This document shows, in pieces, positions 4,350 to 64,000 of a stretch of DNA of 64,000 bases. Below the pieces are notes generated by a model. It worked only from the letters and a program-made list of their open reading frames with translations. It was not told the origin of the DNA and searched no databases. Position numbers and translations under genes: made by a program. Position 1 is the first letter of the stretch, and every line of letters begins with the position of its first letter. The stretch lies in contig SKCR01023804.1 in NCBI GenBank assembly GCA_019454045.1, positions 434,001 to 498,000 of the forward strand, read 5' to 3'. The stretch is from Zanthoxylum bungeanum. Taxonomy: Eukaryota; Streptophyta; Magnoliopsida; Sapindales; Rutaceae.

Positions 4350-4798
4350 AATCACAGGGGCGAAGCCCATGTCAGTATCCGTCTGGGGGTGAGGCCCAGA
4401 TCAGTATCAGTCTAGAGGCGAGGCCCAGATCAGTATCAGTCTGGGGGCGAGGCCCATATCAGTATCAGTTGGGGGCAAGGCCCATATAAGTATCAGTTGG
4501 GGGTGAGGCCCATATCAGTATCAGTCTGGGGGCGAGGCCCATATCAGCATCAGTTGGGGGTGAGGCCCATATCAGTATCAGTCTGGGGGCGAGGCCCATA
4601 TCAGTAGCAGTTAGGGCCGATGCCCACATCAGCATCAGTTTGGGGATGAGTCCCAGGGCCGAGGCCTACATCAGTATCAGTTTAGAGGCGAGGCCCACAT
4701 CTGCATCAGTTTGAGGTCGAGGTGCCCACTACAGTATCAGTCGGGGGTGAGGCCCATATCAGTATCAGTTGGGGGGCGAGGCCCATATCTGCATCAGT
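4350..4798 (+). repeat. Tandem array, ~29-bp monomer
   Basis: About fifteen imperfect copies of CTGGGGGCGAGGCCCATATC followed by AGTATCAGT, with drift at GGGGGCG/GGGGGTG and at the ATATC/ACATC segment. Tandem subrepeats in the 3' untranslated region are an established hallmark of Tat/Ogre elements. Confidence 0.85.
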
Positions 4799-5111
4799 CT
4801 GGCCGGGTATGGCACTCTCGGGGCGAGGCCTACATCCTTATCATCATCAGTCTAGCCGGGTATGGCAGTCTAGGGGCGAGGTCCACATCCTTATCATCAT
4901 CAGTCTGGCCGGGTATGGCACTCTGGGGGTGAGGCCCACATCCTTATCATCATCAGTCTAGCCGGGTATGGCACTCTGGGGGCGAGGCCCACATCCTTAT
5001 CAGCATCAGTCTGGCCGGGTAGGGCACTTTGGGGGCGAGGCCCACATCCTTATCATCATCAGTCTAGCCGGGTATGGCAATCTGGGGGTGAGGCCCACAT
5101 TAACATCAGAT
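4799..5111 (+). repeat. Tandem array, 53-bp monomer
   Basis: Six copies start at 4799, 4852, 4905, 4958 and at the same 53-base step onward. Each joins CTGGCCGGGTATGGCACTCT to a GGGGCGAGGCCCACATCC block and a TTATCATCATCAGT tail. The middle block is the core of the 29-bp array, so this unit looks like that monomer enlarged by a new GCCGGGTATGGCACTC module. Confidence 0.85.
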
Positions 5112-5340
5112 CAGTTTTGCCGGGTACGGCACTCCGGGTATGGAGATACAAAATCAGTTTTGCTGGGTACGGCACTCCGGGTATGGAGACATCAGATCAA
5201 TTTTGCCGGGTACGGCACTCCGAGTATGGAGACATCAGATCAATTTTGCCAGGTACGGCACTCCGGGTATGTAGATATTACTGCGACGTCTTGGGTATGA
5301 GGTTTAGCACGCCAGGTACGGCACTCCAGGTATGGAGATT
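5112..5340 (+). repeat. Tandem array, ~43-bp monomer
   Basis: Units of TTTTGCCGGGTACGGCACTC followed by CGGGTATGGAGACATCAGATCAA recur from about 5115 at 43-base steps (5158, 5201, 5244) and decay toward 5340. The GCCGGGTA(C/T)GGCACTC core is shared with the 53-bp array. Confidence 0.8.
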
Positions 5341-8916: not shown

Positions 8917-10689
8917 TGATGAGCGGAAAATATATCAATATTTACCGCCCCTTTAACTTAATATTTTATTTAGTTTCTCGGTTTTGATGAACGTTTTGAT
9001 GTGTTTTAGTTTATTTTGCAGATAAAATAATATTGGATCTCAATGAAATCATTTAGGATGAAATATGGGTCAAATAAGGGCAATTATTGGACTTGATATT
9101 TTAATTTTGGAGATTGGAAACTTGAAAGGGCGTTTTTGACGAAGTGCAGTTTTGGAAATTCTAATTTTGCGCATCTGTAGTATTTTGGGCATAACGTTTT
9201 ACTCCGATATCGGATTGAGCTGATTCAAGTTCCAGATTAAAGAAGACTCAAATATCTACAGCTTTGAAAGACAAAATAATTTCGAATTCTGACGATTTCA
9301 TGCCCGAAATTGATGAACCATCCAGAAGTGTGTTGTGTGTAATTATTAAAGTCACTTTCAATCATTTTCAACGCAAAAAATAAATTAATAAATAAATAAT
9401 AAAAATTATCAAATCATCACCAAACATGATAAGAGATTAGTGGAGCAATTAATAATGGATTTGGTGGAGCAATTAGTGGAGCAATTAATAATTGATTTGG
9501 TGGATGATTTGATGGAGGTAAAATTTTGCCTATAAATACCAAGCCATTTCATTTGTAAAATTCATACTTTCTTCTAAGGAATTCCTTAAGAATACTAAGA
9601 AGATTATATCTTGTTTGTTTATTACGGCTTTCAGTAATTAATTTCCACTTTCGCACTTTCTTTTCTTTACTTTTCAGTTTTTACTTTCCGCAATTTACTT
9701 TTACGCACAGTACTTTTCTTTCTTTAATTTTCAGTTTTTACTTTTCAGTAATTTACTTTCAGCAATTTACTTTTCAGCAATTACTTTTCAGCAATTTACT
9801 TTCAGCAATTTACTTTTCAGTAATTTACTTTCAGCATTTAATTTTCAGTATTTAATTTCAGCATTTACTTTCAGCATTTACTTTTCAGTATTTAATTTTC
9901 AGTATTTTACTTTATGTCTTTTATTTTATTTAAGTTTTTTTTTATTACCCGTAAATATGTGTCGTAACTAAGCCAGTTATCTGGGGTTGTGATGAAATCC
10001 AATATCACCAGTTTATAAGGGGTTATTTTATAGTTTGGGTAATTTAAAGGTTTACTTATTAAGTCTTAAGCTTAATACGTCTTGTTAATTGGCCACTAAT
10101 AAGATTGATGTGGTAAATCTAAAATAAACTTGACAAAGGAATTTTAGGTTTCAGCCTTAGACTTAATAGCCCACGATCTTCCTTGAGGATATATAACCCT
10201 TTAATAGATTTCCTTACAGGATAGACATATATCTGTCGGGCGGGGGCAGCCATAATTGGAACTTAAACTTAATGAATCCAGATAATTTGGTTGACATAGA
10301 CATATGGTTCAATTGGGTTAAACTGGGTCTTTGCATCTGATCATCGACAGATGCTTTTGCATAATTTAGTGTTCCAAGTTAGTAAATCGATTTATTACAC
10401 AAACATAAAATAATCACTTCATCTTTAAAATGATATTGGAAGAAATCACAACCCTAAATAGTTTTTAATATTGAATTTTCTTAAAATCTACTTTCGAATA
10501 ATTTTATTTACTTGTTTTTAAATTTATAATCGTCACCATTTCAAATCAATCAAACAACATGTTAAATATTAGTAATCATTTGACCTCATAAAATTAATAG
10601 ATTAGATATTAAGTCCTCGTGGGATCGATTTTTTATACTACTTGAACGATACGTGCGCTTGCGTTATACGCGTGTGTAAGCGCCGGTCA
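8917..10689 (+). repeat. Athila-1 5' LTR
   Basis: It begins TGATGAGCGG, the typical start of Athila LTRs, and ends GCCGGTCA. It is near-identical by eye to 26445-28247. Positions 9640-9910 are a simple tandem run of CTTTTCAGCAATTTA-like units. A TATA-like CCTATAAATACC lies at about 9529. This LTR lacks the ~330-base GGATACCGCC insert of the Athila-2 LTRs. Confidence 0.92.
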
Positions 10690-10805: not shown

Positions 10806-11520
10806 ATGAGACGAACCAGAAGCTTTGAACTCCGATCGCTTGACCCAGAAATTGAAAGAACCATCAAACAGTTGAGAAGGGAAAGGCGAGAAGGCCAAGA
10901 AGCTTTAGTCAACATGGAACCTGAACCGTTGGAGGTTGCACCACCAATTCCCATTCGAGACAGAACCATTCTGGTGGTTGACAGACTCATTTCCTGTATT
11001 GTACTTCCTCTCTTACCAGCAAATACGTGTGACATCAAAACATGCATTCAGATGATTCAGCAGTCAGTTCAGTTCGGGGGGAATGTAACTGAAGATCCTA
11101 ATGCCCACATCAGTAACTTCCTGGAAGTTTGCGGTACTTTCAACTACAACAGAGCATCAGAAGAAACAATGAGACTGCGAGTTTTTCCATATTCCTTGAA
11201 AGAAAGAGCTAAAACTTGGCTACATTCACTACCAGCAGGTTCTATCACAACTTGGAACACTTTAGCCACCAAATTTCTTGCAAATACTTTCCACCAGCCA
11301 GAACCAGAAAGCTGAGGAATGACATCACATCCTTTGTACAACAGATTCAGAATCCCTCTGCGAATCTTGGAAATGTACAAAGATTTGCTCCGAAATGTCC
11401 TCACCATGAGATCCAAATGGCTTCAAGTCCAACATTCTATAATGGGCTTTCTGGAATAATGAGAACCACAATTGATGCTGCTGCTGGAGGAGCCTTGATG
11501 GCAAAAGGACAAGATCAAGC
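10806..11520 (+). pseudogene. Athila-1 gag, N-terminal part, frameshifted
   Basis: The frame from ATG 10806 reads MRRTRSFELRSLDPEIE and continues through an NVTEDPNAHISNFLEVCGTF segment and LRVFPYSLKERAKTWLHSLP, the gag core of Athila elements. It breaks at about 11290 by frameshift (stop near 11315). Matching sequence continues out of frame to 11520, where Copia-A1 is inserted. Athila-2 carries the corresponding region in better condition at 58867-58049. The coding sequence resumes at 21519. Confidence 0.85.
11516..11520 (+). other. Target-site duplication of Copia-A1 (left)
   Basis: CAAGC here is repeated at 21519-21523. Removing the insert plus one copy restores gag continuity with the homologous Athila-2 sequence. 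Confidence 0.92.
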
Positions 11521-13617
11521 TGTTGGTTATAATCTAGGTCCCAAGATTAAACAAGACATGAAAACAATGCGTGAATACATCAACGGAGGTAGCGGAATAC
11601 TCACATCGATTAGTTGAGTCGATTTGAAGACGAATCAAGCCCAAAATACTCACTGCCTTAGGCGCCACTGGTGGCAGTCCACTGCCTTCACAAATCAGAT
11701 TTTGAGCTGAGAAACGGAGCTCCAACCTCGTCTAACGGATCCCGCTCATGGGCGAACCTCCCTACCACCTTCGCAAGACTCGTAAGTGTGCTAGCACTTG
11801 ATTTCTCACCATGAAAAACCACTCTTGCTTCCCTATTGCTCACGCCATTTCTGGTTCAAAACCAGTCCATATTTTTTGTTTTGGGCGTGAGAGAATAGAA
11901 AAATGGAGAGATAGAAATGTGTTGACATGTTACAAAAAGTGTAAAGCCTTTTTGATTATAATTTTTCCAAAATAATAATCAATTTCCATTTAATTTCATC
12001 TAATAAATTAAATGAATTTTGGAGCCAAAAACCAAAAGTTTTCCCTCCACTAGCTTTCACTATTCACATCAACTTTAGTCATATCAACTTTAATAAAGTG
12101 ACATGTCTTTCAATCAATCAATCACATCAATCAATCACATCACTCAAAGTGACATTTGATTTGACGCTTGATGTGATGAATGATTTGACGCTTGATGCGA
12201 CTTGCGATACCGCACTCGAATTCGAAACACGAATGCGCTCGCAATCACACTCGGGCTCGGGTTCGTTAATTCCAAATTAATGATTTTTCCGTCGCGTCGT
12301 AATTAAATGATTACGCCTAGCGAATTCACTATTCACGTCGCTGACGAATTAATTCTAAATTAATTCGTTCGCCCGAATTAAAATCTAATTTTAATTCCGC
12401 GTCGAAATCTAATTTCGTTTAATATATCGAATATATTAATTTATCGATTAATTCCAAATTAATCGTTATCTCTCTCTAGACGATATTTTATCCTAGATAA
12501 AATATCGTCTAATTAATCCTAGATTAATTTGTCTCTCTTCTATATAATCCCAGATTATTCAAGAGTGCGAGTTGTGCGTCATCGGTGGATTATCGGGAAG
12601 AGACCCATGAGATCCCCGGATAAGTTGGCAGTAAATGCGGTCGTCGGAGTATCCGAATCACGTACGTACCAAGTACTACGTTCTACCGATTTACGAGACA
12701 AGGTCGACTCCTAGTAAAGCACCAAGTCTACCCAATTCTCCGGACATATCCATTTAAGAATATTAAGATCTGTATCAAGCGTAGTATACTAATGTATTGT
12801 GCGTATCGGCCCAGTATCGGATAGTCACGTGCTAGGGCTGGGGCTTGATAAGTGTCTACCCCGTCCGAAGCACATATCGGATGTCTGGTAACATAGTCTC
12901 TATAATCGGATATTCATGACCCGGTCACAATATCCCGATTGGTTGCGCAACACTCAAGAGCACTAGTACCATATCCTGCGTGACATCATCTCCAATATGA
13001 CTGAAGTGATACTTCCGTCTTGACATCACACCCAATACACTACGACTCTCTGATAAACCCAGAAGTGGTGTACGCAGAACCGATTAAAGCCCTGTACCAC
13101 CAAGACCAAAGTCTATCGATTATCGTAAGTATTAGCGATGTAAGTCTCAGGTTAAGACTATACACACCTACCTTGATTTCGGCCTCCCATAGACACATAG
13201 TCATAATACCAATGGGATTCCGAAGGGTCTATCCAGAGCGAAGCTGTTTCCCGTACCATCGGTGAAACACGACCTCCTATCGCACTTGCATAAGTATCCA
13301 ATACTTATATATATGAGAACTATGCCGTTGTGCCCTCACAACGCACACAAGTGCAATACTAGCCTATTCCGTATTATCGATGTCCAGTCTCGATAATACT
13401 CCGGCTAGGGATTTTAATGATTAATCCTTCGGGGACTGATACTGTCTCATATCATTCTCAGTCCAGGAACTAATCATAGGGACCTCTCTTCATTTATATA
13501 TCTATGGTGATCTAATCACAAATGATGAGAGTGCAATTTCCTTGTCACATAGTTAATTTGCTACAACAACACAATGATCTGTGCAAATAGTGACGCTATG
13601 GGTCATTTTGTCCAACA
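11521..13617 (-). repeat. Copia-A1 3' LTR
   Basis: Its - strand begins TGTTGGACAAAATGACCC and ends ATTATAACCAACA. It matches 19427-21518 closely with scattered substitutions and small indels. Relatives occur at 42731-47321 (interrupted) and 62148-63754. Confidence 0.92.
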
Positions 13618-13628
13618 ATCCCCCACTT
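13618..13628 (-). promoter_or_regulatory. Copia-A1 polypurine tract
   Basis: On the - strand AAGTGGGGGAT lies directly against the TGTTGG start of the 3' LTR, the usual copia arrangement. Confidence 0.8.
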
Positions 13629-15470
13629 GGCACATAGCGAGTCACTCAAGTGTCCTACACCCGAACTATGTACGGTTCGCTCAAATTGCTGAGGAAAGGT
13701 TTTCGTCAGCGATTTGCTTGATTATCGTTTGACGCGATTTATACGATCATCACATCGCCACGATGTATGATCCGAACGAATCAGACGATATAGAAGTATA
13801 TATCTGGATCGTCGATGAGACCTTTAATTCCTTAGCATGTGCTGACGCCTAGCTCAGCTGCTAAAAGAACTATATCTAATCTAATTAGATTTATTTTCGA
13901 TCCAAATGGCTTCTATTGCTGCCTCAGCTGCAGCAATAATCCGCATTTGTTGTTTATTCGGCAACAGTTATCTTGCTCGGAATATTTCCAGTTCACTGTC
14001 CCGTTATTCAAACTTTATAGTACCGTAGTATTTAATTGTTTGGAAACTTGCAGCAGTGATCCCAGTCACTTCAAGTTCTCCTTCTCCATAGTTTAAGACA
14101 ACATCTTTAGTTCTCTCAGATACTAACAGATGTCCTTAATCTTCAATCCAGTGACTATCACTAGGATTGACCTGATCGTGACTCCATATGCTCGAAGCGT
14201 ATGAGACACCCTATCAAGTACATTTTAAATGTACAATTTCCAAGAGAGTGTTAACCAACTCCAAATCTATCCCAGTAGATCTTTATTCCTTGAATAAAGG
14301 TTGTTACTCCCCAGAATTCTACGGAGAATTTCTATTGAAAGCCAAGCTTTCATCAATTGTTTTATGGGAATTTCACTGTCAGTGCGCTCTCCCACTAACC
14401 TCCTTATATACACAAGAATTATTTCGTTTTGAGTCAAATCATAAATCATTATGATTATTTCAAAACGACAGTTCCAAGAACCTTATGCTTGCATTAATCC
14501 AAACATGGATAGAATAACCCGCAAACCTTGTTTGTCGGTTATACAAAATCGTCAGGATGTTGTAAACATCCTCCAAAAGGTTTCCTTTTCAGGAAAGCGA
14601 TTTTGATCTATAACTGACACATTTCATAAATGAAATACGCAGTTATTAACAAGCATCTTCAAAATGGATTTACCATGGCAACAGGTAAAAGGTTGAACCG
14701 TTATTAACACAATGTTGATAACGATACCTTTCCGTCAAAAGCCCAGCTTTGTACGTTGGTATGTTGCCTTCCATGTATGTCTTCCTTGAAGACGTTAATG
14801 TACCAATAGGCACAATGCCTTGTGGTACAACAACTGGTATCCAAAATAGTTGTTATACATGGAATCCATTTCGGACTCATGGCACTTTGCCATAATAGGG
14901 AGTCGATACCTCGTATCACTTCCTCAAAACGTAGTCGGTGGATATACCTTCATAAGATTGACATCTTTATGAGGTTAGATCAGAAACCCATACCCTAGGT
15001 TGTTTTCTAGACTCTATCCGATCTACGAAGTTCTTGTGTATTTGAAGATTAATGGTACAGATTCATCATTGATGAACTATTTGTGTTCCATTAAGGACTT
15101 CGTGCCCTGAACAGTATTACTCCGATTTTCATCGAGTATCACTATCCTCCCACTGACCACTGCATATCGGTATTCCTCTCAGAAAACCGCATGGTGAGCA
15201 ACAATCACATTGTTCTCATGTGAGATTTATAAGTACTATAGTTAAGGTTTCCCTTAGGATAACCTATATTGGCACTTATCCAATTTGGGTTCTTAGTTTG
15301 GTATCATCCAAACGTTATGCCTGGCATACCCAAATTATTAGGAGTGAGAAACCCTGTTTCTTTCTTGTTTATATCCTATATGATATCTGTCAAACAGATT
15401 TATATGGAACCTTATTCTAAATAAGTTTTGCACTGTTAATACATATCCTATAGAAGGAAACAGTAGCTCA
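13629..15470 (-). pseudogene. Copia-A1 reverse transcriptase/RNase H remnant
   Basis: Next to the LTR the - strand in shifting frames gives the copia pol tail, ending in a segment like FERTVHSSGVGHLSD and then AKWG. Around 14690-14860 another frame gives VPQGIVPIG and TYKAGLLTERY, resembling the copia RT start (a V-P-x-G-C-x-P-I-G segment, then TYKARLVAKGY). The frame is broken throughout and no intact catalytic block can be read. Confidence 0.65.
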
Positions 15471-16010
15471 GAGCGACTCGTGATAAACCTTATCATGTCC
15501 AACAAAATTCGGTTTTTTCGGACACACCGTCTAACTGACGTGTCTAAGTCGTCCGCTCATCATGAAAGAATACCATACTCTTTCATGTACGTATGAAACT
15601 TACTGCTTAAGTATTTTCCATTACGGTCTTACCGTGGGAATAATACTATAGCCGATCTGCTGTTTTTCTATTTCGTGTCGAAACTCTAAAGTTTCCGATT
15701 TGTGTTCTTCAAAAGAAACACATAACCATAACGTGATGCTACATCCGTCAAGGTCACGAAATATTCATGTTCACATCTAGTCTAGCTAGATATGGGCCCA
15801 CTTACTTCACCATGAACAGGGCTAACAGATCAGTGGCCCTTTTACTATTACCAAGTAAATAGTATTTTAGGTATTTTACCTAATAAACTAGATTCGCAGA
15901 CCTTATTTGAATAGTCAAATCAGTCCTAGTACCCACTCTTCAAAAGTGTGGATATACGAGTCTCGTTTAATTGTGTCCTAGACAACATGCCACAAATAAG
16001 TCTCTATTGA
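15471..16010 (-). pseudogene. Copia-A1 integrase remnant
   Basis: The - strand in mixed frames contains HSDVSGPIS, then EYFVTLTDVASRYGYVF. This is the copia integrase core around its first catalytic Asp (HSDVCGP) and the FTDD-x-SR-x-x-x-V/Y motif. The same region in better condition is at 43300-43640. Frameshifts and stops rule out function. Confidence 0.75.
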
Positions 16011-19000
16011 TCAAATCAATTTGAGCTATTTATTTGTCATTTTTATATGTTTGAGATTTTATTATATTCAAAATATAAATTATGTTATTTACATCTAATG
16101 TATTTATCTCAGTATCATCTTTATATAATGAAACACTTAGTGTTCTAGAATATAAAGGTTTTATCCGCAACGGATTAAACACTGATATAGAGATAATGTC
16201 TCTAGTCAAACTAGTTACATTATAACAGTTCCTAATTTAAGTACATACCCAAAGGGTAGTTCCTAAACTTAGGTATCTACGGTCGAAACAGCGACTTTCG
16301 TCCCGTTTCCGATTCGCAGAGAAATCTCGGCTTGAAGTCAGTATCCAGCTCATAGCGGATTCTGAACATCAATACATATATTTTATGTACCACACTAAGT
16401 ATTTAAAATCCAATTTCAATACTAGTAGTGAACATAACTTTGACAAATATTTTAAAGTCAGAGCCTCGCCCTTTCTTTAATTCCTTCGTGTCTTCCATAT
16501 CCAAATGGTAGTCACTTTGGGATATGTCAATTATCTTTTCAATATTTCACAAACCTTTGGCCAAGCCTTGGGTTTCGGAATATCGAAACGATGTGCACCT
16601 TGTGCAACACGCCCAATTGTAAACTTTGACTTTTCTCCACTAGAATAGTCAATTAATTCTCCAAGAATTATTAATTGCAATTTTAATACCTTTTAAATCT
16701 AAAGATAGATTTATTGTCAGGTATATTAAATTAAGCACTAAAGTCATCATCACATAAATCTTCCAAAGATTTATGCTCTACTTATTTGCTTAATTTTGGG
16801 CTTAGATATAACAAGTTATTTTATCCAATAAAGTAACCTATTATTAATTCCCAATAAAATTAAATCATTTAAAACATTTAATCCAAGGATTATATATTTT
16901 AAATATTCAACTTTTCAATTCTTTCTTGATTTCAATAGTCCAACTATTTAATCAATTTAATAAGGTACTATTCATTATAATGATTACAATAATCCAATTA
17001 TTTAATCAACTATAATTTTAATTCAATTATATTGATTACTATAATCCAATTATAAAATCAACTATATATCGAATGAGTTTGTATATAGTCCAACTATATG
17101 TATTTTTAAAACAACATAAAATATTAGTCCAACTAATACTTTTGATTAATATGACGAGTAAAATATAGATGAGCGCGTTTAGCGAGTATTCGAACGAATG
17201 TTGCAAATTCAATACTTGCCTCCCACTATTTTTCGTCGAGCCTCTAACCCTCTGTCGAGTACTCGGGAAACCGTGTTTCCTAGTGGGCTAGGATCCCGTT
17301 AAATATCACACAATCTTGACTTTGGCCAACAAATTGTATGATAATTAACTAGGTAGATCTCGAAGATCAATTGGATCTCATCCAACTCCTAGATCCAGTA
17401 GGTGGACATCCAAGTCCCAAACATATATCTTATATATGCCTATACATCGAATGTATACCCTAACCTTTTTCCTCTGAATCAACTAGGCCTTGGCTTTGGC
17501 ACAACAAACCTAGTGATCCCAGTCAAGCGCGGACCCATTGACATGGAAGCTTCGTAATCAATGTCAATGGACAAGAAGTGGTCTTGACTTTGGCCAACAA
17601 ACCACAACTTGGACACGACACCGATATGGAACAAAGCCTCGTGATTAAAACACATCTTCGACGGACAAGGGCTTGACTTTGGCCAACAACCCCTGCCAAT
17701 CTCGGATCTTGAGTAAGAATCACTCAATGGAAGGAAAATAAACGCTTGATATTTAACGAGGGTTTTTCGCGTGCAAATTGGCTACCAATTTAATTATCTT
17801 TGTTAAGGTCTCATCATCATACACCCTTAAACATGCATTCTAAACACATAATAAAGCGAGTATGAAATAAATAATAATGATATGTGGATGGATACTTTAC
17901 ACATTGATCCTAGATCAAATCTCTCCCTTTCTCACTCAAGCTAGCACTTGTATTACTTCTACCCGTTACACTACACTTCTAAAGAAACCTCATTTACATT
18001 GAGGGGAATAGGTGAGAAGAGAATACAAAGAGAATAGAGGTGATAAGGCTGGACACGCAGGTCCAATTTAATAAATCGAATTTATTACAACAATTTCCAA
18101 AATTGCCCCCCCCATCTAATATCCATCCGATATACATTATTCATACAACACAACCACGTATTCACACACATAAGCATGCTATCAATCAATCTAATCAAAT
18201 TAATTAATCTGATAATTAAGTGATCATCCAATGTTCAAACAACGATTTGATTTTGTTCGAGTCAAACTCGTTTTTGCGAATAAGTACTTAAAGTACGAAT
18301 TCATGAATTAAATTAAACTACATCATTAAATCTAATTTAACATGTATTTAATACTAATTCACTATTCAATTCCAAATTAAACATTACACTTTATTAATAA
18401 ACCTTTTACGATTTAAATTCCAAATTTAATCGTAACGCGTCTCAAAGACCGATTAACGTCCAACGTCAATTCAATTAAAGTCCAATGGGCTTTTAATTGA
18501 TTTCTTAAGGCGTGGACTTTTGGTCAACTCGGGTCAAACCGATAACCAAAGTCCAATCCGGGATTTACCCCATAAGCCCATAAATCAATCTTGGCCCATT
18601 AGGCCCAATTGAACTTTAAAGGTTCATTAGTCGCATTTGGGCTTTATGGTTAAGGTTTTGGGCCCAATTGGATCCAATCCATTCGGCCTAAACCCAACTT
18701 GATAAAATCAAGCCCAATAGGCCCAATTACAACATTAGAAGCCCAAATCCAATTTAAGCCTAAATAATTAAATTTCATGAATCCAATTCCGCAATTTAAT
18801 TACTTAAAGTGCATTACATGATTAATCAACTAAATCAACATTTCCAAAACACTAAATTAGTCCAATTAATCATACTCAATTCATTATTATATGTCCAACA
18901 CACAAATTGAAAAATCAAACCCATTTACATGCTTCAAAGCTCTCGGCCAAGGAGGGATTTTGTGTCCGATTTGGTTCAACACAATCCATCAACAATCCAC

Positions 19001-19412
19001 ATCACAATCCAATTCAATCCATCCTAATGATTATCATATCACACATCCAATGTCACAAAATCAAAATCACCAAGACATTAGGGCAATAATCTTATTCGGC
19101 CAAGGTGATTAATTTAGGGATTTTATGTTCAATTCAAAATCCAATCCAATTAGTTCCAAATTAACATTATCCTTAATGATTCCAACTCATCAAATGAATC
19201 AAAATCAAAAATTTCCAAGCACCCAAAAATCAATACACATTCGGCCAAGAGGAAATATTTGGGAAAATTGTTCTAAACATTTTTTCTTGAAATTGATCAA
19301 ATCAATCTTCAATACAACAACATTTAAACATGCTCAATCATCCAATTTCATAAATCATGCTCAAATCCAAAATACCCAATTTTAAGCCTACATTTTTCAT
19401 GCTTGAACCTAA
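16011..19412 (-). pseudogene. Copia-A1 gag and leader remnant
   Basis: At 16450-16515 the - strand reads SQSDYHLDMEDTKELKK then GRGSD. It aligns with the zinc-knuckle region of the related fragment at 44200-44295, but the CX2CX4HX4C knuckle itself is missing. The phrase CTTGACTTTGGCCAACAA occurs three times between 17310 and 17690. The remainder (about 17760-19412) is AT-rich with many CCCAAT phrases and no recognisable protein. Confidence 0.55.
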
Positions 19413-19425
19413 GCTCTTGATGCCA
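19413..19425 (-). promoter_or_regulatory. Copia-A1 primer-binding site, initiator tRNA-Met type
   Basis: The - strand reads TGGCATCAAGAGC just inside the right LTR, close to the TGGTATCAGAGC site of most plant copia elements. It fixes the minus orientation. Confidence 0.7.
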
Positions 19426-19426
19426 T

Positions 19427-21518
19427 TGTTGGTTATAATCTAGGTCCCCAGATCAAACAAGACATGAAAATAATGCGTGAATACATCAACGGAGGTAGCG
19501 GAATACTCACATCGATCGGTTGAGTCTTTTGAAGACGAATCAAGCCCAAAATGCTCACTGCCTTAGGCGCCACTGGTGGCAGTCCACTGCCTTCACAAAT
19601 CAGATTTTGAGCTGAGAAACGGAGCTCCAAGCCTCGTCTAACGGATCCCGGCTCATGGGCGAACCTCCCTACCACCTTCGCAAGACTCGTAAGTGTGCTA
19701 GCACTTGATTTCTCACCGTGAAAAACCACTCTTGCTTCCTTATTGCTCACGCCATTTCTGGTTCAAAACCAGTCCATATTTTTCTGTTTTGGGCGTGAGA
19801 GAATAGAAAGAAATGGAGAGATAGAAATGTGTTGACATGTTACAAAAAGTGTAAAGCCTTTTTGATTTAATATTTTCCAAAATAATAATCAATTTCCATT
19901 TAATTTCATCTAATAAATTAAATGAATTTTGGAGCCAAAAACCAAAAGTTTTCCCTCCACTAGCTTTCACTATTCACATCAACTTTAAGTCAATATAACT
20001 TTAATAAAGTGACATGTCTTTCAATCAATCAATCACATCACTCAAAGTGACATTTGATTTGACGCTTGATGTGACGATGATTTGACACTTGATGCGACTT
20101 GCGATGCCGCACTCGAATTCGAAATACGAATGCGCTCAATCACACTTGGGCTCGGGTTCGTTAATTCCAAATTAACGATTTTTCCGTCGCGTCGTAATTA
20201 AATGATTACGCCTAGCGAATTCACTATTCACGTCGCTAACGAATTAATTCTAAATTAATTTGTTCGCCCGAATTAAAATCTAATTTTAATTCCGCGTCGA
20301 AATCTAATTTCGTTTAATATATCGAATATATTAATTTAATCGATTAATTCCAAATTAATCGTTATCTCTCTCTAGATGATATTTTATCCTAGATAAAATA
20401 TCTCTGTAATTAATCCTAGATTAATTTTCTCTCTCTTCTATATAATCCCAGATTATTCAAGAGTGCGAGTTGTGCGTCATCGGTGGATTATCGGGAAGCG
20501 ACCCATGAGATCCCCGGATAAGTTGGCAGTAAATGCGGTCGTCGGAGTATCCGAATCACGTACGTACCAAGTACTACGTTCTACCGATTTACGAGACAAG
20601 GTCGACTCCTAGCAAAGCACCAAGTCTACCCAATTCTCCGGACATATCCATTTAAGAATATTAAGATCTGTATCAAGCGTAGTATACTAATGTATTATGC
20701 GTATCGGCCCAGTATCGGATAGTCACGTGCTAGGGCTGGGGCTGGATAAGTGTCTACCCCGTCCGAAGCACATATCGGATGTCTGGTAACATAGTCTCTA
20801 TAATCGGATATTCATGACCTGGTCACAATATCCCGATTGGTTGCACAACACTCAAGAGCACCAGTACCATATCCTACGTGACATCATCTCCAATATGACT
20901 GAAGTGATACTTTCGTCTTGACATCACACCCAATACACTACGACTCTCTGATAAACCCAGAAGTGGTGTACGCAGAACCGGTTAAAGCCCTGTACCACCA
21001 AGACCAAAGTCTATCGATTATCGTAAGTATTAGCGATGTAAGTCTCAGGTTAAGACTATACACACCTACCTTGATTTCGGCCTCCCATAGACACATAGTC
21101 ATAATACCAATGGGATTCCGAAGGGTCTATCCAGAGCGAAGCTGTTTCCCGTACCATCGGTGAAACACGACCTCCTATCGCACTTGCATAAGTATCCAAT
21201 ACTTATATATATGAGAAATATACCGTTGTGCCCTCACAACGCACACAAGTGCAATACTAGCCTATTCCGCATTATCGATGTCCAGTCTCGATAATACTCC
21301 GGCTAGGGATATTTAATGATTAATCCTTCGGGGACTGATACTGTCTCATATCATTCTCAGTCCAGGAACTAATCATAGGGACCTCTCTTCATTTATATAT
21401 CTATGGTGATCTAATCACAAATGATGAGAGTGCCATTTCCTTGTCACATAGTTAATTTGCTACACAACAACACAATGATCTGTGCAAATAGTGACGCTAT
21501 GGGTCATTTTGTCCAACA
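19427..21518 (-). repeat. Copia-A1 5' LTR
   Basis: This is the pair of 11521-13617, with the same ends and followed by the CAAGC duplication. Confidence 0.92.
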
Positions 21519-21981: not shown

Positions 21982-23226
21982 ATGATACTATATTTCAATC
22001 TCAAGCAGCAAGATATGATGCTATGCCAAGCAGAATTAATTCAAAGTCAATCAGCTTCTATTAAAGCATTGGAGAATCAAATTGGACAACTGGCCAATGC
22101 TCAGAGTTACAGACCGCCAGGTACCCTTCCTAGCAACACAGAGCCAAATCCAAGGAACATGGGGAAGGAGCAATGTCATGCCATCATGTTAAAAAGCGGT
22201 ACTGAAATCAACAAAGATGTTGGAATCAATGCAACAACAATTGAAGATTTTCCAAAAGAAACAAAGCAACAGATGGAGGAAAAAGAAGCAAAGGAAAAAG
22301 AACAGATCACTCCACCTCCACCTTTTCCTCAGCGTCTTCAGAAGAATAAACTGGACAAACAGTTTGCTCGATTCTTGGAGGTGTTCAAAAAGTTGCATAT
22401 CAACATTCCATTTGCAGAAGCGTTGGAACAAATGCCCAGCTATGCCAAATTCATGAAAGACATTCTTTCACGAAAGCATAGATTGGGAGATTATGAGACA
22501 GTAGCATTATCAGAAGAATGCAGTGCCATCATTCAGAGAAAACTTCCTCCAAAATTGAAAGATCCTGGCAGTTTCACTGTTCTTTGCACCATAGGAGAAC
22601 ATGACTTCGGTAAGGCTCTGTGTGATTTAGGTGCTAGTGTTAACTTGATGCCTTTTTCTATTTTCAGGAAACTGCAGATTGGAGAAACAATGCCCACTTC
22701 AGTCTCACTACAACTTGCTGATAGAACGCTCGTATTTCCAAGAGGCGTAGTTGAGGATGTGCTGGTCAAGGTTGACAAATTCATTTTCCCAGCATATTTT
22801 ATTGTCCTTAATATGGAGGAAGACGCAGATGTGCCAATTATCCTCGGGAGACCATTCTTGGCTACAGGTCAAACCATTATTGATGTACAAAAAGGAGAAC
22901 TGACCATGAGGGTACAAGACCAAGAAGTAACATTCAATGTTTTCAAAGCCATGAATTTCCCAGATGATGAAAAGAATGAGGAATGTTTCAGACTTGATAT
23001 GATACATAGTACCATTCAGAACTCTGATGAAAGACAAAGTTCTACTGACAAACTTAAAGCATGTCAATTACTTGTGGAGCCTGAAGATAAATCGCACTGC
23101 GTACTGAAGAAGCCTATTCTTGCACTACAAGTAACAGAAGAGAAAAAGTTCCACCAGCTCAACGAACTGGAGGAATTTCACATACAGCCTTTTGAGGATG
23201 CCAAATTGTACAAGGAAAAGACATGA
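21982..23226 (+). CDS. Athila-1 gag C-terminus plus protease, fused to a post-integrase segment
   Basis: This is an open frame of 414 codons. The N-terminal part reads ENQIGQLANAQSYRPPG, a typical Athila gag end. A Lys/Glu-rich linker and PPPPFPQRLQK follow. The aspartic-protease domain is centred on CDLGASVNLMPFSIF (D-x-G-A-S active site, about residue 217) and PIILGRPFLAT (flap/second lobe). At about residue 375 the frame passes without a stop into KKFHQLNELEEFHIQPFEDA, which in Athila-2 lies after the integrase catalytic core. The RT, RNase H and integrase core have therefore been deleted in frame. Protease would process Gag; without RT the element cannot replicate alone. Confidence 0.8.
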   Translation: MILYFNLKQQDMMLCQAELIQSQSASIKALENQIGQLANAQSYRPPGTLPSNTEPNPRNMGKEQCHAIMLKSGTEINKDVGINATTIEDFPKETKQQMEEKEAKEKEQITPPPPFPQRLQKNKLDKQFARFLEVFKKLHINIPFAEALEQMPSYAKFMKDILSRKHRLGDYETVALSEECSAIIQRKLPPKLKDPGSFTVLCTIGEHDFGKALCDLGASVNLMPFSIFRKLQIGETMPTSVSLQLADRTLVFPRGVVEDVLVKVDKFIFPAYFIVLNMEEDADVPIILGRPFLATGQTIIDVQKGELTMRVQDQEVTFNVFKAMNFPDDEKNEECFRLDMIHSTIQNSDERQSSTDKLKACQLLVEPEDKSHCVLKKPILALQVTEEKKFHQLNELEEFHIQPFEDAKLYKEKT

Positions 23227-23626: not shown

Positions 23627-24175
23627 ATGGAAGAAGCTCTCGCAAATCTTCACAAGCAATTTCCTTCTCTCCCTCAAAAATCTCTGATGAAAGTCTACAA
23701 AGCTCGCTTGGAACGGATGAGACTACTGATGATCAAAGGTATTCCTAATGACATTCGTTGGGTAATTGAAGCATGAGTCCGATTGGCAGGTGAGTCTTCT
23801 GACTCTTTTATTTCACATATGTCTGGTTTTAGAAGAAGCACCTATGCAAAGAAACGTAGAGCTAAACAAATGGGTGTTTGTTACAAATGTGCACGCTGGA
23901 ATTGCAATACTCGTTGTCGTTCTTTAGGAATGGTGTCTGATAATCGCGAAGACAAAATTAAATTCATTAGGGATGGCTTGAGTAAGGAATCTTTAGATGA
24001 TATATCTTTAACTCTTGAGACGCATCCCAATGGATATGTTCACATAGTCATTCGCAAATTACATACACAATTCCAAAAAGAAAGACAACAATTAAGTCTT
24101 GGGAATCTGACTCAAAAAGACCTTGTTTGCCAGTTTATAAGAAAATTGGATGGGAAGCTTGTCCTTAACGCATAG
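23627..24175 (+). pseudogene. Athila-1 accessory ORF-A: basic Cys-rich protein, one stop
   Basis: The frame has 182 codons from ATG 23627, with a TGA at codon 50 (23774-23776) and otherwise open. The N-terminal half is amphipathic (MEEALANLHKQF, then IPNDIRWVIEA). Residues 75-80 are KKRRAK and are followed by a cysteine cluster C85-x2-C88-x4-C93-x3-C97, then charged helical sequence ending at a TAG. No membrane segment is visible, so it is not an envelope-like protein. A basic block followed by a Cys cluster recalls the small nucleic-acid-binding proteins of betaflexiviruses; that is a weak pattern match only. The homologue in Athila-2 is broken at different positions. Confidence 0.6.
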
Positions 24176-24435
24176 ACTTCAATCAAGCCGTTACTTTTCT
24201 TGTAAATATTATATCTCTTTGTCTTTTCTTAATAATTGTGATTTGTTTTGTTGTTTTCTTTTATTTTCTCCAACAGGATCCAGAGCTTTTTGACTATCAC
24301 GATATTATTTCGCTACTAATCGTCCTCTAAAAGATACTTGTGCTATTTTTACTCACCCTTTTCAGGTACTATAAATTCAGCCCGTCATTGCACTTTTGAA
24401 GGCATCCAGAGTTGAGAAAGAAATACATATAAAAA
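24176..24435 (+). promoter_or_regulatory. Spacer before LOG with two acceptor-like sites
   Basis: TTTTATTTTCTCCAACAG ends at 24276 and CTCACCCTTTTCAG ends at 24365. Both are pyrimidine-rich tracts closed by AG and both are retained in Athila-2 (AG at 53175-53174 and 53078-53077 on the - strand). The LOG ATG follows 70 bases after the second. They could place LOG near the 5' end of a spliced subgenomic RNA. Confidence 0.4.
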
Positions 24436-25089
24436 ATGGAAGCCACTTCAAGAAGACGAGTTGAAAACATCTGTGTGTTTTGCGGTAGTAGTGTTGGTGT
24501 TAAGCCACAATACGTAGAAGCAGCACAAGAATTGGGTCGAGTCTTAGCTGCAAGAAATATGCACTTAATATATGGCGGAGGCAATCTTGGACTTATGGGA
24601 ATCGTTTCAAAAGTTGTACATGAAGGAGGCAGTCACGTTTTGGGAATCATCCCAAAACCTTTGGCAGAAGCAAATCTTATTGAACCATCAAACGGAGAGG
24701 AACTGATCGTGCCAGGTATGTCTGAACGTTTGGTAGAAATGATTAACCGTGCTGATGCTTTTATTGCTTTGCCAGGTGGCTTGGGTAGATTGGAGGAAAT
24801 TTTTATTGTGCTATCTTGGGCGAACTTGAACATACACCAGAAACCAATTGGGCTGTACAACGTTGATGGATTTTATGATTTTCTTTGTGTGTTTCTTGAT
24901 GATGCCCGGAGAAATGTGTTCGTGTCAAAACCTTTGAAAGAACTCATCTTTACTGCCAGAACTGCTCCGGATCTAATAGACCAACTCATAGCCTATGAAC
25001 CACGAGTTGACCCTATCCTTTCAAAGATAAATTGGTCTGATGACGATCGTGGTAAGAGGCGTAGGATTAATCTGGATCTTAACCTTTAA
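24436..25089 (+). CDS. Captured LONELY GUY (LOG) cytokinin riboside 5'-monophosphate phosphoribohydrolase, copy 1
   Basis: This is an intact, intronless frame of 217 codons. LOG enzymes release active cytokinin bases from cytokinin nucleoside monophosphates in the cytosol or nucleus. The Rossmann-like fold is recognisable: ICVFCGSSVGVKPQY (12-26), YGGGNLGLMG (46-55), VLGIIPKPL (68-76), MSERLVEM with R98, and ALPGGLGRLEEIF (111-123) with E121. R98 and E121 are the residues implicated in LOG catalysis. The family motif is PGGxGTxxE; here Thr is replaced by Arg (R118). Plant LOG genes normally have several introns, so this copy came through RNA. The C-terminus is unusual: GKRRRINLDLNL, a basic run followed by LxLxL. 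Position between integrase and 3' LTR, and presence in both Athila copies, make it element cargo. Confidence 0.9.
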   Translation: MEATSRRRVENICVFCGSSVGVKPQYVEAAQELGRVLAARNMHLIYGGGNLGLMGIVSKVVHEGGSHVLGIIPKPLAEANLIEPSNGEELIVPGMSERLVEMINRADAFIALPGGLGRLEEIFIVLSWANLNIHQKPIGLYNVDGFYDFLCVFLDDARRNVFVSKPLKELIFTARTAPDLIDQLIAYEPRVDPILSKINWSDDDRGKRRRINLDLNL

Positions 25090-26444: not shown

Positions 26445-28247
26445 TGATGAGCGGAAAATATATCAATATTTACCGCCCCTTTAACTTAATATTTTATTTA
26501 GTTTCTCGGGTTTGATGAATATTTTGATGTGTTTTAGTTTATTTTGCAGATAAAATAATATCGGATCTCAATGGAATCATTTAGGACGAAATATGGGTCA
26601 AATAAGGGAAATTATTGGACTTGATATTTTAATTTGGGAGATTGGAAACTTGAAAGGGCGTTTTTGACGAAGTGCAGTTTTGGAAATTCCAATTTTGCGC
26701 ATCTCTAGTACTTTGGGCATAACTTTTTACTCCGATATCAGATTGAGCTGATTCAAGTTCCAGATTAAAGAAGACTCAAAGCTCTACAGCTTTTAAAGAC
26801 AAAATAATTTCGAATTCTGACAATTTCATGCCCGAAATTAATGAACCATCCAGAAGTGTGTTGTGTGTAATTATTAAAGTCACTTTCAATCATTTTCAAC
26901 GCAAAAAATAAATTAATAAATAAATAATAAAAATTATCAAATCATCACCAAACATTATAAGAGATTAGTGGAGCAATTAATAATGAATTTGGTGGAGCAA
27001 TTAGTGGAGCAATTAATAATTGATTTGGTGGATGATTTGATGGAGGCAAAATTTTGCCTATAAATACCAAGCCATTTCATTTGTAAAATTCCTACTTTCT
27101 TCTAAGGAATTCCTTAAGAATACTAAGAAGATTGTATCTTGTTTGTTTATTTACAGCTTTTAGTAATTAATTTCCGCTTTCGCACTTTCTTTTCTTTAAT
27201 TTTCAGTTTTTACTTTCCGCAATTTACTTTTACGCACAGTACTTTTCTTTTCTTTAATTTTCAGTTTTTACTTTTCAGTAATTTACTTTCAGCAATTTAC
27301 TTTTCAGCAATTACTTTTCAGCAATTTACTTTTCAGCAATTTACTTTCAGCAATTTACTTTCAGTAATTTACTTTCAGCATTTAATTTTCAGTATCTAAT
27401 TTCAGCATTTACTTTCAGCATTTACTTTTCAGTATTTAATTTTCAGTACTTAATTTTCAGTATTTTACTTTATGTCTTTTATTTTATTTAAGTTTTTTTT
27501 ATTACCTGTAAATATGTGTCGTAACTAAGCCAGTTATCTGGGGTTGTGATGAAATCCAATATCACCAGTTTATAAGAGGTTATTTTATAGTTTGGGTAAT
27601 TTAAAGGTTTACTTATTAAGTCTTAAGCTTAATGCGTCTTGTTAATTGGCCACTAATAAGATTGATGTGGTAAATCTAAAATAAACTTGACAAAGGAATT
27701 TTAGGTTTCAACCTTAGACTTAATAGCTCACGATCTTCCTTGAGGATAGATAACCATTTAATAGATTTCCTTACAGGATAGACATATACCTGTCGGGCGG
27801 GGGCAGCCATAATTGGAACTTAAACTTAATGAATCCATATAATTTGGTTGACATAGACATATGGTTCAATTGGGTTAAACTGGGTCTTTGCATCTGACCA
27901 TCGACAGAGGCTTTTGCATAATTTAGTGTTCCAAGTTAGTAAACCGATTTATTACACAAACATAAAATAATCACTTCATCTTTAAAATGATATTGGAAGA
28001 AATCACAACCCTAAATAGTTTTTAATATTGAATTTTCTTAAAATCTACTTTCGAATAATTTTATTTACTTGTTTTTAAATTTATAATCGTCACCATTCCA
28101 AATCAATCAAACAACCTGTTAGATACTAGTAATCATTTGACCTCATAAAATTAATAGATTAGATATTAAGTCCTCGTGGGATCGATATTTTTATACTACT
28201 TGAACGATACGTGCGCTTGCGTTATACGCGTGTGTAAGCACCGGTCA
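26445..28247 (+). repeat. Athila-1 3' LTR
   Basis: It matches 8917-10689 along its length, with the same CAGCAATTTA-type simple tandem run (27230-27475). It ends ACCGGTCA. Confidence 0.92.
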
Positions 28248-42730: not shown

Positions 42731-45700
42731 TGTTGGACAATTATGACCCATAGCATCACTATTTATCTTTGGAAGTCCGAATGGTATGGAAACAGCTTCG
42801 CTCTGGATAGACCCCTCAGAATTCCATTGGTAGTATGACTATGTGTCTTTGGAAGTCCGAATCAGGGTAGGTGTATTTGGTCTTAACCTGAGACTTGCAC
42901 CGCTAATACTTGCGACAATCAATATACTTTGGTTTTTGTCGTTCAGGGCTTTAACCGGTTCTGTGTACGCCTCTTCTGGGTATATTGAGAATCATAGTGT
43001 ATTGGGTGTGATGTCAAGATGGAAGTATCACTCCAGTCATAGTGGAGATGATGGTCACGTAGGATACGGAACTAGTACTCTTATGTACTGCAGTCATCGG
43101 GATAATATGACAAGGTCATGATTATCCGATTATAGAGACTAGTTACCAGAGATCCGACATGTGTTTCGTACGGGGCAGACACAATTCCAGCCCCAGGCCT
43201 AGCACGTGACATCCGATACTGGATCGCAATACGTAATACTATGTATACTACGCCTGATATCTTTTGTGAAGAGTCCATCATGAAATGATACTATACTCTT
43301 TCATATATTCGAGAAACTTATTGCTTAAGTATTTTCCATCATGGTCAAATCATGATGGTTTAATACTTTAGCCGATCTGTCTGTCAACTTCGTGTCGAAA
43401 CTTTTTGAATTTATCAAAAGTTTCCGATTTATATTTCATAAGAAACACATAACCATAACGCGATACCACATCTGTAAAGGTTACGAAGTATTCATATCCA
43501 CCTCTAGCCTAGCTAGATATGGGTCCACTAACGTCACTATGAACGAGGGCTAACAGATCGGTGGCACTTGCATTTTTACCAAGTAAAAAGTGTTTTAGGC
43601 ACTTTGCCTAATAAACTAGATTCGTAGACATCATTTGAATAAGATCAAATCAGTTCTAGTATCCACTCTTCAAAAATGTGGATATACGAGTCTTGTTTAT
43701 TGTGTCCTAGAAAACAATGCCACAAATAAGTCTAATCTGATTAAATCAGGTTTGAGCTATTTGTTTGTCATGTCATACGTTTGAGATTCATTTATATTCA
43801 AAATATAAATACTGTTATTCACATCTAATGTGTTTATCTCAATATCATCTTTATAAAATAAAATATTTTAGTGTTCTAGAATATAAAGGTATATCCGCAA
43901 CGGATTATACTCTGATATAGAGATAATATTTCTAGTCAAACTAGTTATATTATAACAGTTTCCTAATTTAAGTACACACGAGAATGTAGTTCCTAAACTT
44001 AGGTTTCTACGGTTAAAACAGCGATTTTTGTCCCGTTTCCGACTCACAGGTAAATCTCAATTGAAGTCAGTATCCTGTTTATCAGCAGATTCTACACATC
44101 AGTACATATTTATGTACAATACTTAGTATCAAAATCTAATTTTGAAACTAATAGTGAACATGTTTATGACAAACATACTTAAAGTCGGAGCCTTGCCCCG
44201 CTTTCACTTTCTTCATGTCTGCCTTGTCCATACGGCAGTCACGCATCTAGTGACCCCGTTTGCCACAATTTAGGCAGACATCTTGGGATATATCCTTTGT
44301 CTTCCTAGAAGGCTGTGATGATTTTGCCTTTGCCCCTTTTTAGAAGCTCTGGCTTTGCCTCCTAGAGCATAGCCATTAACTCTCCAAGAGTTTACTCTTG
44401 GTTCATAATGAACCTGCCCCAGCTTTCGGGTAGAGACTATAAGATCAAATCTTTGGTAGTCTCGGCCACGTAGGTAACGCCCAGCTAACCTAGCTGATCG
44501 ATGTCAGCAATCATCTGCGACACCTAGTGCTCGATAGATGTACCCTCCGACATACACGAGCTAAAGAGCTTCTTATGCAATTTGTACTTCTAAGATCTAA
44601 AATAGATCTATGAAGATCTTTAATTTCATCTTCATGGTACAATGATCTAATCCTTAACTCTGATGACGGAATTAAAGTGTCATTACATTAAGCATAAAGG
44701 ATTGAGCACTAAAGTTATCATTACATAAATATTCCAAATATCATGTTCTACTATTTGCTCAACTCCGGGCTTAGGCCCAAGAGGTTGCTCTATCAAATAG
44801 AGTAACTTCTCAGTTCTCAGGACTATCCTGAGGTTTTATTCCCAATCTGAACTTAAAGCTGTTTAAAGACATTTTACCCGGGTTTATGTTTTAAACACTA
44901 ATCTTTCATTTATCTTGATTGCTATAGTCCAACTATCCAATCAACGATTTCAGGTACTATTGAATATAATGATTACTATAGTCTAACTATATAATCAACT
45001 ATAATTTAATTGGTTAAATTCAAATATATTGATTACTATAATCCAATTATATAATCAACTATAATTTGAAGTAGTTTGAATACAGTCCAACTGTTTTAAT
45101 TAAAACAACGATATTAGTCTAACTAATATTTATTTAAGTAATGACGACAAATTTGAAATGAGCGCGTATTGGCAAGTAACTAAACGAATTTGCAAATTTA
45201 ATACTTGCCTCCCACTATTGTTCGGCGAGCCTCTAACCATCTGTTGAGTACTCGGGAAACCTTGTTTCCTAGTGGGCTAGGATCCCGTTAAATAACACAC
45301 AACCTTGACTTTGGCCAACAAGCTGTATGATATTTAACTAGGTAGATCTCTAAGATCAATTGGATCTCATCCAATTCCTAGATCCAGTAGGTGGACATCC
45401 AAGTCCGAAACATATATCTTATATATGCCAATATATCCAATATATTTTCCTAACCTTTTTCCTCTGAATCAACTAAGCATTGGCTTTGGCACAATAAACT
45501 TAATGATTCCAGTTAAACGGGACCCATTGACCTTGGAAAGCTTCGTAATCGATGTCGATGGACAAGAAGTGATCTTGACTTTGGCCAACAAATCACAACT
45601 TGGACAAGACATGCGATATGGAACAAAGCCTTCATGATTCAAACACATCCGCAATGGATAAAGGTCTTGACTTTGGCCAACAAACCAGTGCCAATCTTGG

Positions 45701-52370: not shown

Positions 52371-53024
52371 TTAAAGGTTAAGATCCAGATTAATCCGACG
52401 CCTCTTACCACGATCGTCCTTGGACCAATTTATCTTTGAAAGGATATGGTCAATTTGTGGTTCATAAGCTAAGATTTGGTCAATTAGATCCGGAGCAGTT
52501 CTGGCAGTAAAGATGAGTTCTTTCATAGGTTTTGACACGAACCTAATTCTCCGAGCATCATCAAGAAACACACAAAGAAAATCATAAAATCCTTCAACGT
52601 TGTACAGTCCAAGCAGTTTCTGGTGTATGTTTAGGTTCGCCCAAGATAACACTGTAAAAATTTCCTCCAATGTACCCAAACCACTTGGCAAAGCAATAAA
52701 TGCATCAGCACGATTAATCATTTCCACTAGTCGTTCGGACATACCTGGCACAATAAGTTCCTCTCCGTTTGATGGTCCAATAAGATTCGCCTCTGCCAAA
52801 GGTTTTGGGATGATTCCCAAAATGTGACTGTCTCCCTCCTGTACAGCTTTTGAAACGATCCCCATAAGTCCAAGATTGCCTCCTCCATATACTAAGTGCA
52901 TATTCCTTGCAGCTAAGACTCGACCCAATTCATGTGCTGCCTCTACGTATTGTGGCTTAACACCAACACTAGTACCGCAAAACACACAGATGTTTTCAAC
53001 CAATCTTCTTGAAGTGGCTTCCAT
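52371..53024 (-). CDS. Captured LONELY GUY (LOG) phosphoribohydrolase, copy 2
   Basis: This is an intact, intronless frame of 217 codons, the same length as the copy at 24436-25089, with roughly two dozen amino-acid differences and no indels. Key blocks: ICVFCGTSVGVKPQY, YGGGNLGLMG (46-55), MSERLVEM with R98, and ALPSGLGTLEEIF (111-123) with E121. Here the Thr of PGGxGTxxE is kept but the first Gly is Ser (S114), a different substitution from copy 1. The C-terminus GKRRRINLDLNL is identical in the two copies. It lies 250 bases downstream of ORF-A with two conserved acceptor-like sites between. It should bind nucleoside monophosphates; activity is uncertain because of S114. Confidence 0.9.
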   Translation of the reverse strand: MEATSRRLVENICVFCGTSVGVKPQYVEAAHELGRVLAARNMHLVYGGGNLGLMGIVSKAVQEGDSHILGIIPKPLAEANLIGPSNGEELIVPGMSERLVEMINRADAFIALPSGLGTLEEIFTVLSWANLNIHQKLLGLYNVEGFYDFLCVFLDDARRIRFVSKPMKELIFTARTAPDLIDQILAYEPQIDHILSKINWSKDDRGKRRRINLDLNL

Positions 53025-63754: not shown

Positions 63755-64000
63755 ATCTCTCACTTGGCCTATAGCCAATCACTCAAGTGTCCTACACCCG
63801 AACTATGTACGGTTCGCTCAAATTTCTGCTGAGAAAATGCTTTCGTCAGCGGATTTGTATGGTTATCATCTGATGTTATTTATTCGATCATCACATCGCC
63901 ACGATGTATGATCCAAACGAATCAGATGAATATATGAAGTATATATCTGGATCGTTGATGAGACCATTAATTCTTTAGCCTGTGTTGTAGCCTAGCTCAG
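63755..64000 (-). pseudogene. Copia-A pol C-terminal end
   Basis: This is collinear with 13618-13860; the same CCTACACCCGAACTATGTAC segment is present. On the - strand it corresponds to the last residues of copia RNase H. Frames are broken and the rest is outside the window. Confidence 0.6.

Follow-up and report, generated by a model that had tools for sequence, protein, structure and literature searches.

Within the window, the 64,000-nt stretch of the Zanthoxylum bungeanum genome analysed here (contig SKCR01023804.1, positions 434,001 to 498,000), we identified a gene of the LOG family inside each of two Athila-type Ty3/gypsy retrotransposons. We consider it rather probable that LOG is an accessory gene which selection maintains in an Athila-type lineage, and that it would be expressed from spliced RNA as an active enzyme, with a tail directed to the nucleus and to the corepressor TOPLESS, and make the host cell permissive for the element. 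A function is indicated by the codon pattern, by derivatives that keep LOG without RT and integrase, by likely relatives in several eudicot families and by a shared C-terminal motif. LOG inside Ty3/gypsy elements has already been published for Citrus and Populus (PMC9289625). New here are the LxLxL tail, the partner gene CRP, the retention of LOG without RT and integrase, the codon pattern and the copy number.

The first LOG copy (24436–25089, plus strand) is intronless and open from its ATG to the stop codon, encodes 217 amino acids and matches PF03641 with an E-value of 1.4e-33 (116.3 bits; cut-off 27). A previous, sequence-only reading of this DNA had placed an intact LOG frame between the integrase and the 3′ LTR of element 1, and this was confirmed. 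It had also described a second copy of the same place and length. This holds for the frame at 52371–53024 (217 amino acids; PF03641 at 2.2e-30, 106 bits), with the addition that it lies on the minus strand, which had been overlooked; the plus-strand reading is full of stop codons. Both frames are located between the end of the integrase and the 3′ LTR of their respective elements, and the two LOG stretches form a 663-nt inverted pair, 91% complementary. Besides the strand of copy 2, the loss of pol in element 1, a carlavirus-like gene, changes in the active site and the C-terminal tail had been missed. In a search with copy 1, the best match of solved structure was PDB 2a33 (Arabidopsis At2g37210, which we take to be AtLOG3) at 3e-58. 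The structure model of LOG shows the fold at a mean pLDDT of 85 with a disordered C-terminal tail. That these loci might be ordinary host LOG genes, a possibility raised in advance, was ruled out because the frames sit inside LTR elements.

Both elements are assigned to the Athila type of Ty3/gypsy elements, a name that rests on the previous reading, the layout and the primer-binding site. Steinbauerova et al. are said to have tied LOGL4-like ORFs to Athila elements in 2011. Element 2, on the minus strand throughout, extends from its 5′ LTR (59362–61516) to its 3′ LTR (48907–51047; K2P 4.1%) and has the 5-bp target duplication CGTGG at both ends. It contains gag (Retrotrans_gag; 58049–58867), RT (RVT_1; 56077–57387) and then integrase (rve, H2C2; 54323–55066). 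The primer-binding site TTTTTGGCGCCGTTGCCGGGGACT, presumably of the tRNA-Asp type, is located two bases past the 5′ LTR, and the polypurine tract GGTTTGGGGGG lies ahead of the 3′ LTR. Element 1, on the plus strand, has its 5′ LTR at 8917–10689 and its 3′ LTR at 26445–28247 (K2P 2.6%), flanked by GTGTG and GTGGC without a perfect target duplication. The order of gag, RT and integrase is not found in this element: RT, RNase H and the integrase core are missing (~2.65 kb), and the C-terminal end of the integrase remains. The junction of this deletion (23110–23160, plus strand) is common to 11 of 20 long loci fetched from the genome. Nested in the gag of element 1 is a further LTR element, foreign to the LOG element (11518–21518, plus strand), with LTRs of 2.1 kb at 11521–13617 and 19427–21518 (96.8%); it is probably non-autonomous, as there are few frames of at least 90 amino acids inside. 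Using a rate of 1.3e-8 substitutions per site and year, the LTR divergences of 2.6% and 4.1% correspond to ~1.0 and ~1.6 million years for elements 1 and 2, respectively.

Other repeats were also seen in the window. More partial copies (~81–85%) of the element nested in element 1 lie at 42781–46798, there with pieces in mixed orientation, and at 62333–64000. Tandem repeats with a 14-nt step occur in the LTRs of element 2 (49652–49895 and 60108–60337), and the LTRs of element 1 have internal repeats, too. A tandem repeat with a 53-nt step is located at 4730–5153 (159-nt stretches 71–92% alike), and a 488-amino-acid frame with a Retrotrans_gag domain from a different retrotransposon at 2299–3765.

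To count the LOG-bearing copies, we searched the 3.96-Gb assembly containing the window. The LOG protein search yielded at least 150 places, window copy 1 included, all 92–100% identical and 138 of them without a stop codon. A 25-nt pattern from the LOG C-terminus, allowing one mismatch at most, gave 10,071 and 9,979 matches, together 20,050, and none for the control; the same pattern recovers 53 of 62 known copies. The LOG frame is not a product of chance: at least another 149 copies reach 92% identity, and the tail matches stand against a control of zero. From the best 150 places, 60 copies were fetched, 20 with ~10 kb and 40 with 1.75 kb, and the window pair was added to yield a set of 62. 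Because the 60 fetched copies are those whose protein scored highest against window copy 1, they favour intact, conservative ones, and as they were picked for having LOG, they give no frequency of members without it.

An LTR match follows downstream of LOG in 16 of the 20 long loci (the remaining four include three of a layout without CRP), and CRP lies upstream of LOG in 17 of them. When the short loci are included, a CRP match of at least 60 amino acids precedes LOG in 54 of 60 copies, whereas five have no match and one a shorter one; in 20 of the 54, CRP is in one open frame. The proposal that LOG travels with the element family is thus supported. Among the 20 long loci, RT, RNase H and integrase are present in five and, owing to the shared deletion, absent altogether from 11; one has another deletion with part of RT kept, and three have LOG but no CRP, protease, RT or integrase upstream. 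A 25-mer at the deletion junction is present in every one of the 12 rows that have the deletion (the 11 loci and element 1) and in none of the six with RT to integrase, which places element 1 in an amplified non-autonomous subfamily. The three loci L057, L060 and L065 represent a third layout, in which LTRs ~79% like those of the window, a Cys-rich frame and a long leader are followed by LOG; by its appearance, the Cys-rich frame resembles a gag fragment.

The gene between the end of the integrase and LOG encodes a cysteine-rich protein similar to the nucleic-acid-binding proteins of carlaviruses (CRP). In element 1 (23627–24175, plus strand), it contains one in-frame stop, with an open piece at 23783–24175, and in element 2 (53275–53824, minus strand) a frame break and a stop, with an open piece at 53275–53685. 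Matches to PF01623 exceed the cut-off of 20.9 bits in elements 1 (E-value 1.1e-5, 25.7 bits) and 2 (2.1e-7, 31.2 bits); those to PF05515, with 21.6 and 22.9 bits, are both below the cut-off of 23. A protein search with the open piece as query identified 384 relatives. Among the best 120 of these, 58 are 182 amino acids long and 68 range from 180 to 184 amino acids, and the named records include Xanthoceras, Populus, Acer, Rhamnella, Parasponia and Orobanche. Each of the two Pfam families is matched by 17 of 20 aligned CRP members at a maximum E-value of 1e-3. The structure model (pLDDT 57) was too poor for a fold search, and scanning IMG/VR with the CRP alignment gave no matches.

In a scan of prokaryote genomes, a 3.3-kb contig of a bacterial assembly (L029), which is probably plant contamination, was found to carry an open CRP downstream of an integrase. 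This CRP scores above the PF05515 cut-off and just below that of PF01623. No LOG was found among frames of at least 60 amino acids in the remaining 980 bases, suggesting that CRP also occurs without LOG. The sequence-only reading had named members lacking LOG at this position as evidence against its claim, and this single related contig is what was found of that kind. Compared with the cysteine-rich or nucleic-acid-binding proteins of carlaviruses, the element CRP is alike in the PF01623 matches of both window pieces, but it is located in an LTR retrotransposon, adjoins the integrase in L029 and measures 182 amino acids in many relatives. For the CRP of chrysanthemum virus B, roles as a transcription factor, an inducer of hyperplasia and a weak silencing suppressor have been described (PMC12172455; for its function likewise PMC7588395).

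Two candidate 3′ splice sites, both recognized by motif, precede LOG in element 1. The first, TTTCAG/G (24360–24366, plus strand), belongs to the sequence TTTCAGGT, which all 22 copies compared, the CRP-less layout included, have 52–75 nt upstream of the start of LOG. The second (24263–24277, plus strand) consists of a pyrimidine tract and ACAG/GATCC; ACAGGATCC, farther upstream of LOG than TTTCAGGT, is exact in 18 of the 22 copies. These conserved acceptor-like sites before LOG suggest a spliced element RNA.

The active-site motif PGGxGTxxE is not exact in the window copies: copy 1 has PGGLGRLEE and copy 2 PSGLGTLEE, while most relatives have PGGLGTLEE. Of the 62 copies, ranked by likeness to copy 1, 58 have PGGLGTLEE unchanged and all 62 have Arg98; the four that deviate in the motif include both window copies, each with its own change. 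With one changed position in the motif each, the window copies probably yield no full enzyme now. The LOG of the element family, judging by its sequences, is probably an active cytokinin-nucleotide phosphoribohydrolase.

The C-terminus of the element-type LOG proteins combines a basic stretch with an EAR-type LxLxL motif (KRRRINLDLNL in copy 1, with the same tail in copy 2). This tail was found in 80 of 93 database relatives of 210–222 amino acids, in 90 of 120 LOG relatives among the matches listed (fragments included; one count took in the window copies) and in 59 of the 62 copies from the Z. bungeanum genome. None of 120 host LOG1/3-type proteins has a C-terminal LxLxL, and six of 120 host LOGs have it elsewhere in the protein. 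Across 32 aligned rows, 48–88% identical to the first row, each of the three tail leucines is conserved to at least 90%, whereas the residues between them vary. The element LOGs share the fold, the motif and the length of the catalytic part with plant LOG1/3-type enzymes, but the best 150 copies are 47–51% identical to a Dipteronia LOG.

The EAR repression motif has two consensus forms, one of which is LxLxL (PMC9956375). The oomycete effector HaRxL21 is described to bind TPL via a C-terminal EAR motif, but ten other LxLxL effectors showed no TPL binding in yeast two-hybrid assays, so LxLxL alone is no guarantee of TPL binding (PMC7446885). The element LOG resembles HaRxL21-type effectors in having a C-terminal LxLxL on a protein of a plant-cell parasite; it differs in that the motif sits on a LOG enzyme and that TOPLESS recruitment is predicted from the motif. 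A role apart from cytokinin, in which the LOG fold would serve as a nucleotide-monophosphate hydrolase or in connection with RNA or the capsid and the tail in particle assembly or nuclear transport, is conceivable but rather unlikely. It is consistent with a tail that is basic beside hydrophobic, with the predicted nature of TOPLESS binding and with the varying product spectrum of plant LOGs described in PMC11593424, but it leaves the retention of the catalytic Arg and of PGGxGTxxE, as well as the conservation of three leucines amid variable residues, without a ready explanation.

Elements with a LOG domain have been described before. A LOG (YgdH) domain was reported in consensus sequences of Gypsy-type LTR elements from Citrus sinensis and C. 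clementina, and in those of P. trichocarpa only with a filter switched off (PMC9289625, Alvarado-Marchena et al. 2022); this domain in a Gypsy-type LTR element is what they share with the window elements. For LOG-like extra ORFs, the same paper cites Steinbauerova et al. 2011. Its section 12 mentions no LxLxL tail, carlavirus-like partner, pol-less LOG derivatives or copy number, and the titles and abstract openings of the papers found in an open-access library report neither the tail nor the CRP partner. According to PMC9289625, the fixation of extra protein domains in LTR retrotransposons is considered rare. It describes a comparable case in Phalaenopsis, where Gypsy elements carry an AlkB m6A demethylase: here, too, an extra enzyme gene is kept over rounds of replication, and AlkB is of an enzyme kind also present in plant flexiviruses. 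The orchid case differs in the enzyme, the lineage and in activity shown in vitro (PMC9289625), whereas the element LOG is known from sequence.

To place the element LOGs among their relatives, an unrooted tree was calculated from 31 element-type, 19 host (LOG1/3 type and AtLOG8) and 10 bacterial sequences. The named element-type rows stem from Populus, Reevesia, Diplodiscus and Paulownia, the rest are metagenome proteins. Element, host and bacterial LOGs each occupy one side of a branch, with support of 100/97, 100/98 and 100/99, although the bootstrap was not fully settled, and the stems of this three-way fork measure 0.37, 0.52 and 0.4. In AU tests, three placements of the element LOGs were rejected: beside the LOG1/3 types without LOG8 (p 0.008), beside AtLOG8 (p 0.0075) and beside the LOG of PDB 5zbj (p 0.003), whose organism is presumably Pseudomonas. 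With this sampling, the element LOGs make up a single deep clade that lies apart from the host types LOG1/3 and LOG8. A tree of host LOGs and element-borne copies had been proposed in the sequence-only reading; here, the element-type copies are not nested within the host types sampled. The capture of a spliced host LOG transcript suggested there is, as a recent event, not supported, given the separate clade and the AU tests against both host types. Independent captures in each plant were rejected as well, since all 31 element rows belong to one clade (100/97).

Besides the types in the tree, plants hold further LOG groups (PMC11593424), and an ancient plant donor may have belonged to these. 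A bacterial or other non-plant origin is unlikely. The unrooted fork of three groups and the lack of introns would fit such a donor, but the AU test rejects joining the 5zbj LOG, and the plant structure 2a33 is the best solved match of copy 1, with 200.5 versus 154.4 bits for 5zbj, although the gap is smaller for the relative P0003 (191 versus 159).

Similar 217-amino-acid proteins occur in records of Populus, Reevesia, Diplodiscus, Paulownia and Xanthoceras. Based on likeness and one paper, we infer that the database relatives in other species lie in elements, too. From these sequences, LOG is probably an old accessory gene of the element lineage with likely relatives in several eudicot families. 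When the same genome was searched with a host LOG, at least 150 single-exon rows were returned, all of the element kind and 139 without a stop codon. Scanning IMG/VR with LOG gave no matches; with the LOG alignment, 28 distant loci were found, none of them a plant element by identity (27–59%) and coverage. LOG-family genes are present on IMG/VR contigs (L001–L005) and in records that bear the names of Enterococcus, Acinetobacter, Staphylococcus and Listeria phages. For the relatives P0116 (LOG) and P0147 (CRP) alike, the longest contig measures 4511 bases, and the two may share it. P0011, from a Xanthoceras record, has 359 amino acids with two Lysine_decarbox stretches and may be a gene-prediction fusion of neighbouring copies.

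We further investigated the selection acting on the reading frame. For the window pair, LOG has a dS of 0.23 and a dN of 0.054, corresponding to a dN/dS of 0.235 (bootstrap 0.13–0.41), compared with 0.12 for the protease region and 0.39 for the open part of CRP. After removing ~3.3% of neutral post-insertion change, half of each LTR divergence, the LOG ratio is ~0.12. Parsimony counts over the 62 copies yielded 133 synonymous and 43 non-synonymous changes on internal branches (dN/dS 0.12) and 262 and 136 on terminal branches (0.19); as the sample was ranked by likeness to window copy 1, N is lowered and stops are excluded. In the last 14 residues, non-synonymous changes number one on internal and 12 on terminal branches. 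Among 27 rows with ungapped CRP, dN/dS is 0.13 (internal) and 0.26 (terminal) for LOG and 0.36 and 0.69 for CRP, which has one and 13 stops, respectively. The claim that the element family keeps LOG is thus upheld by purifying selection, with an internal dN/dS of ~0.12 among likeness-ranked copies. A lone non-functional cargo was rejected on dN/dS.

LTR elements are well known to capture host genes, and a full-length intronless frame with active-site changes in both window copies could be that of a passenger, a recently captured host LOG cDNA hitch-hiking with no role for the element. This is very improbable in view of the internal dN/dS in the likeness-ranked sample, the single clade not nested in the sampled host types, the presence of LOG in several layouts and the 217-amino-acid proteins in records of five other genera. 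Most improbable is a stretch kept for splice acceptors, packaging or 3′ signals with an incidental frame, as the acceptor-like site in 22 of 22 copies and the retention of LOG in some copies with CRP gone or broken might suggest, because the internal synonymous and non-synonymous changes stand at 133 to 43 against ~1 to 2.7 expected without selection on the protein, and frame and motif are kept in relatives 48–88% identical to the first aligned row.

As a selected accessory gene, LOG would be made together with CRP from spliced element RNA, to which the acceptor-like sites point. The LOG protein would act as an active phosphoribohydrolase that releases free-base cytokinin, and its basic and LxLxL tail may bring it to the nucleus and to the TOPLESS corepressor. 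LOG with CRP would then lead to more free-base cytokinin and to division of the expressing meristem or germline cell, which would thereby become more permissive for new heritable insertions. The share of CRP in this effect is modelled on its viral kin and could comprise silencing suppression and, following one virus, hyperplasia.

It is possible, though we propose this tentatively, that both proteins work as an effector-like pair, in which a virus-type zinc-finger protein and a TOPLESS-recruiting LOG raise cytokinin, promote division or a stem-cell state and damp transcriptional defence. If true, an endogenous retroelement would steer host development similar to gall-formers and effectors, which would help to account for the ~20,000 LOG tails in one genome. 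Whether extra genes of LTR elements serve the element is rarely clear, and the tail offers a testable mechanism, the binding of TOPLESS. The Z. bungeanum genome would be a case of a hormone-activation gene with roughly twenty thousand copies borne by elements.
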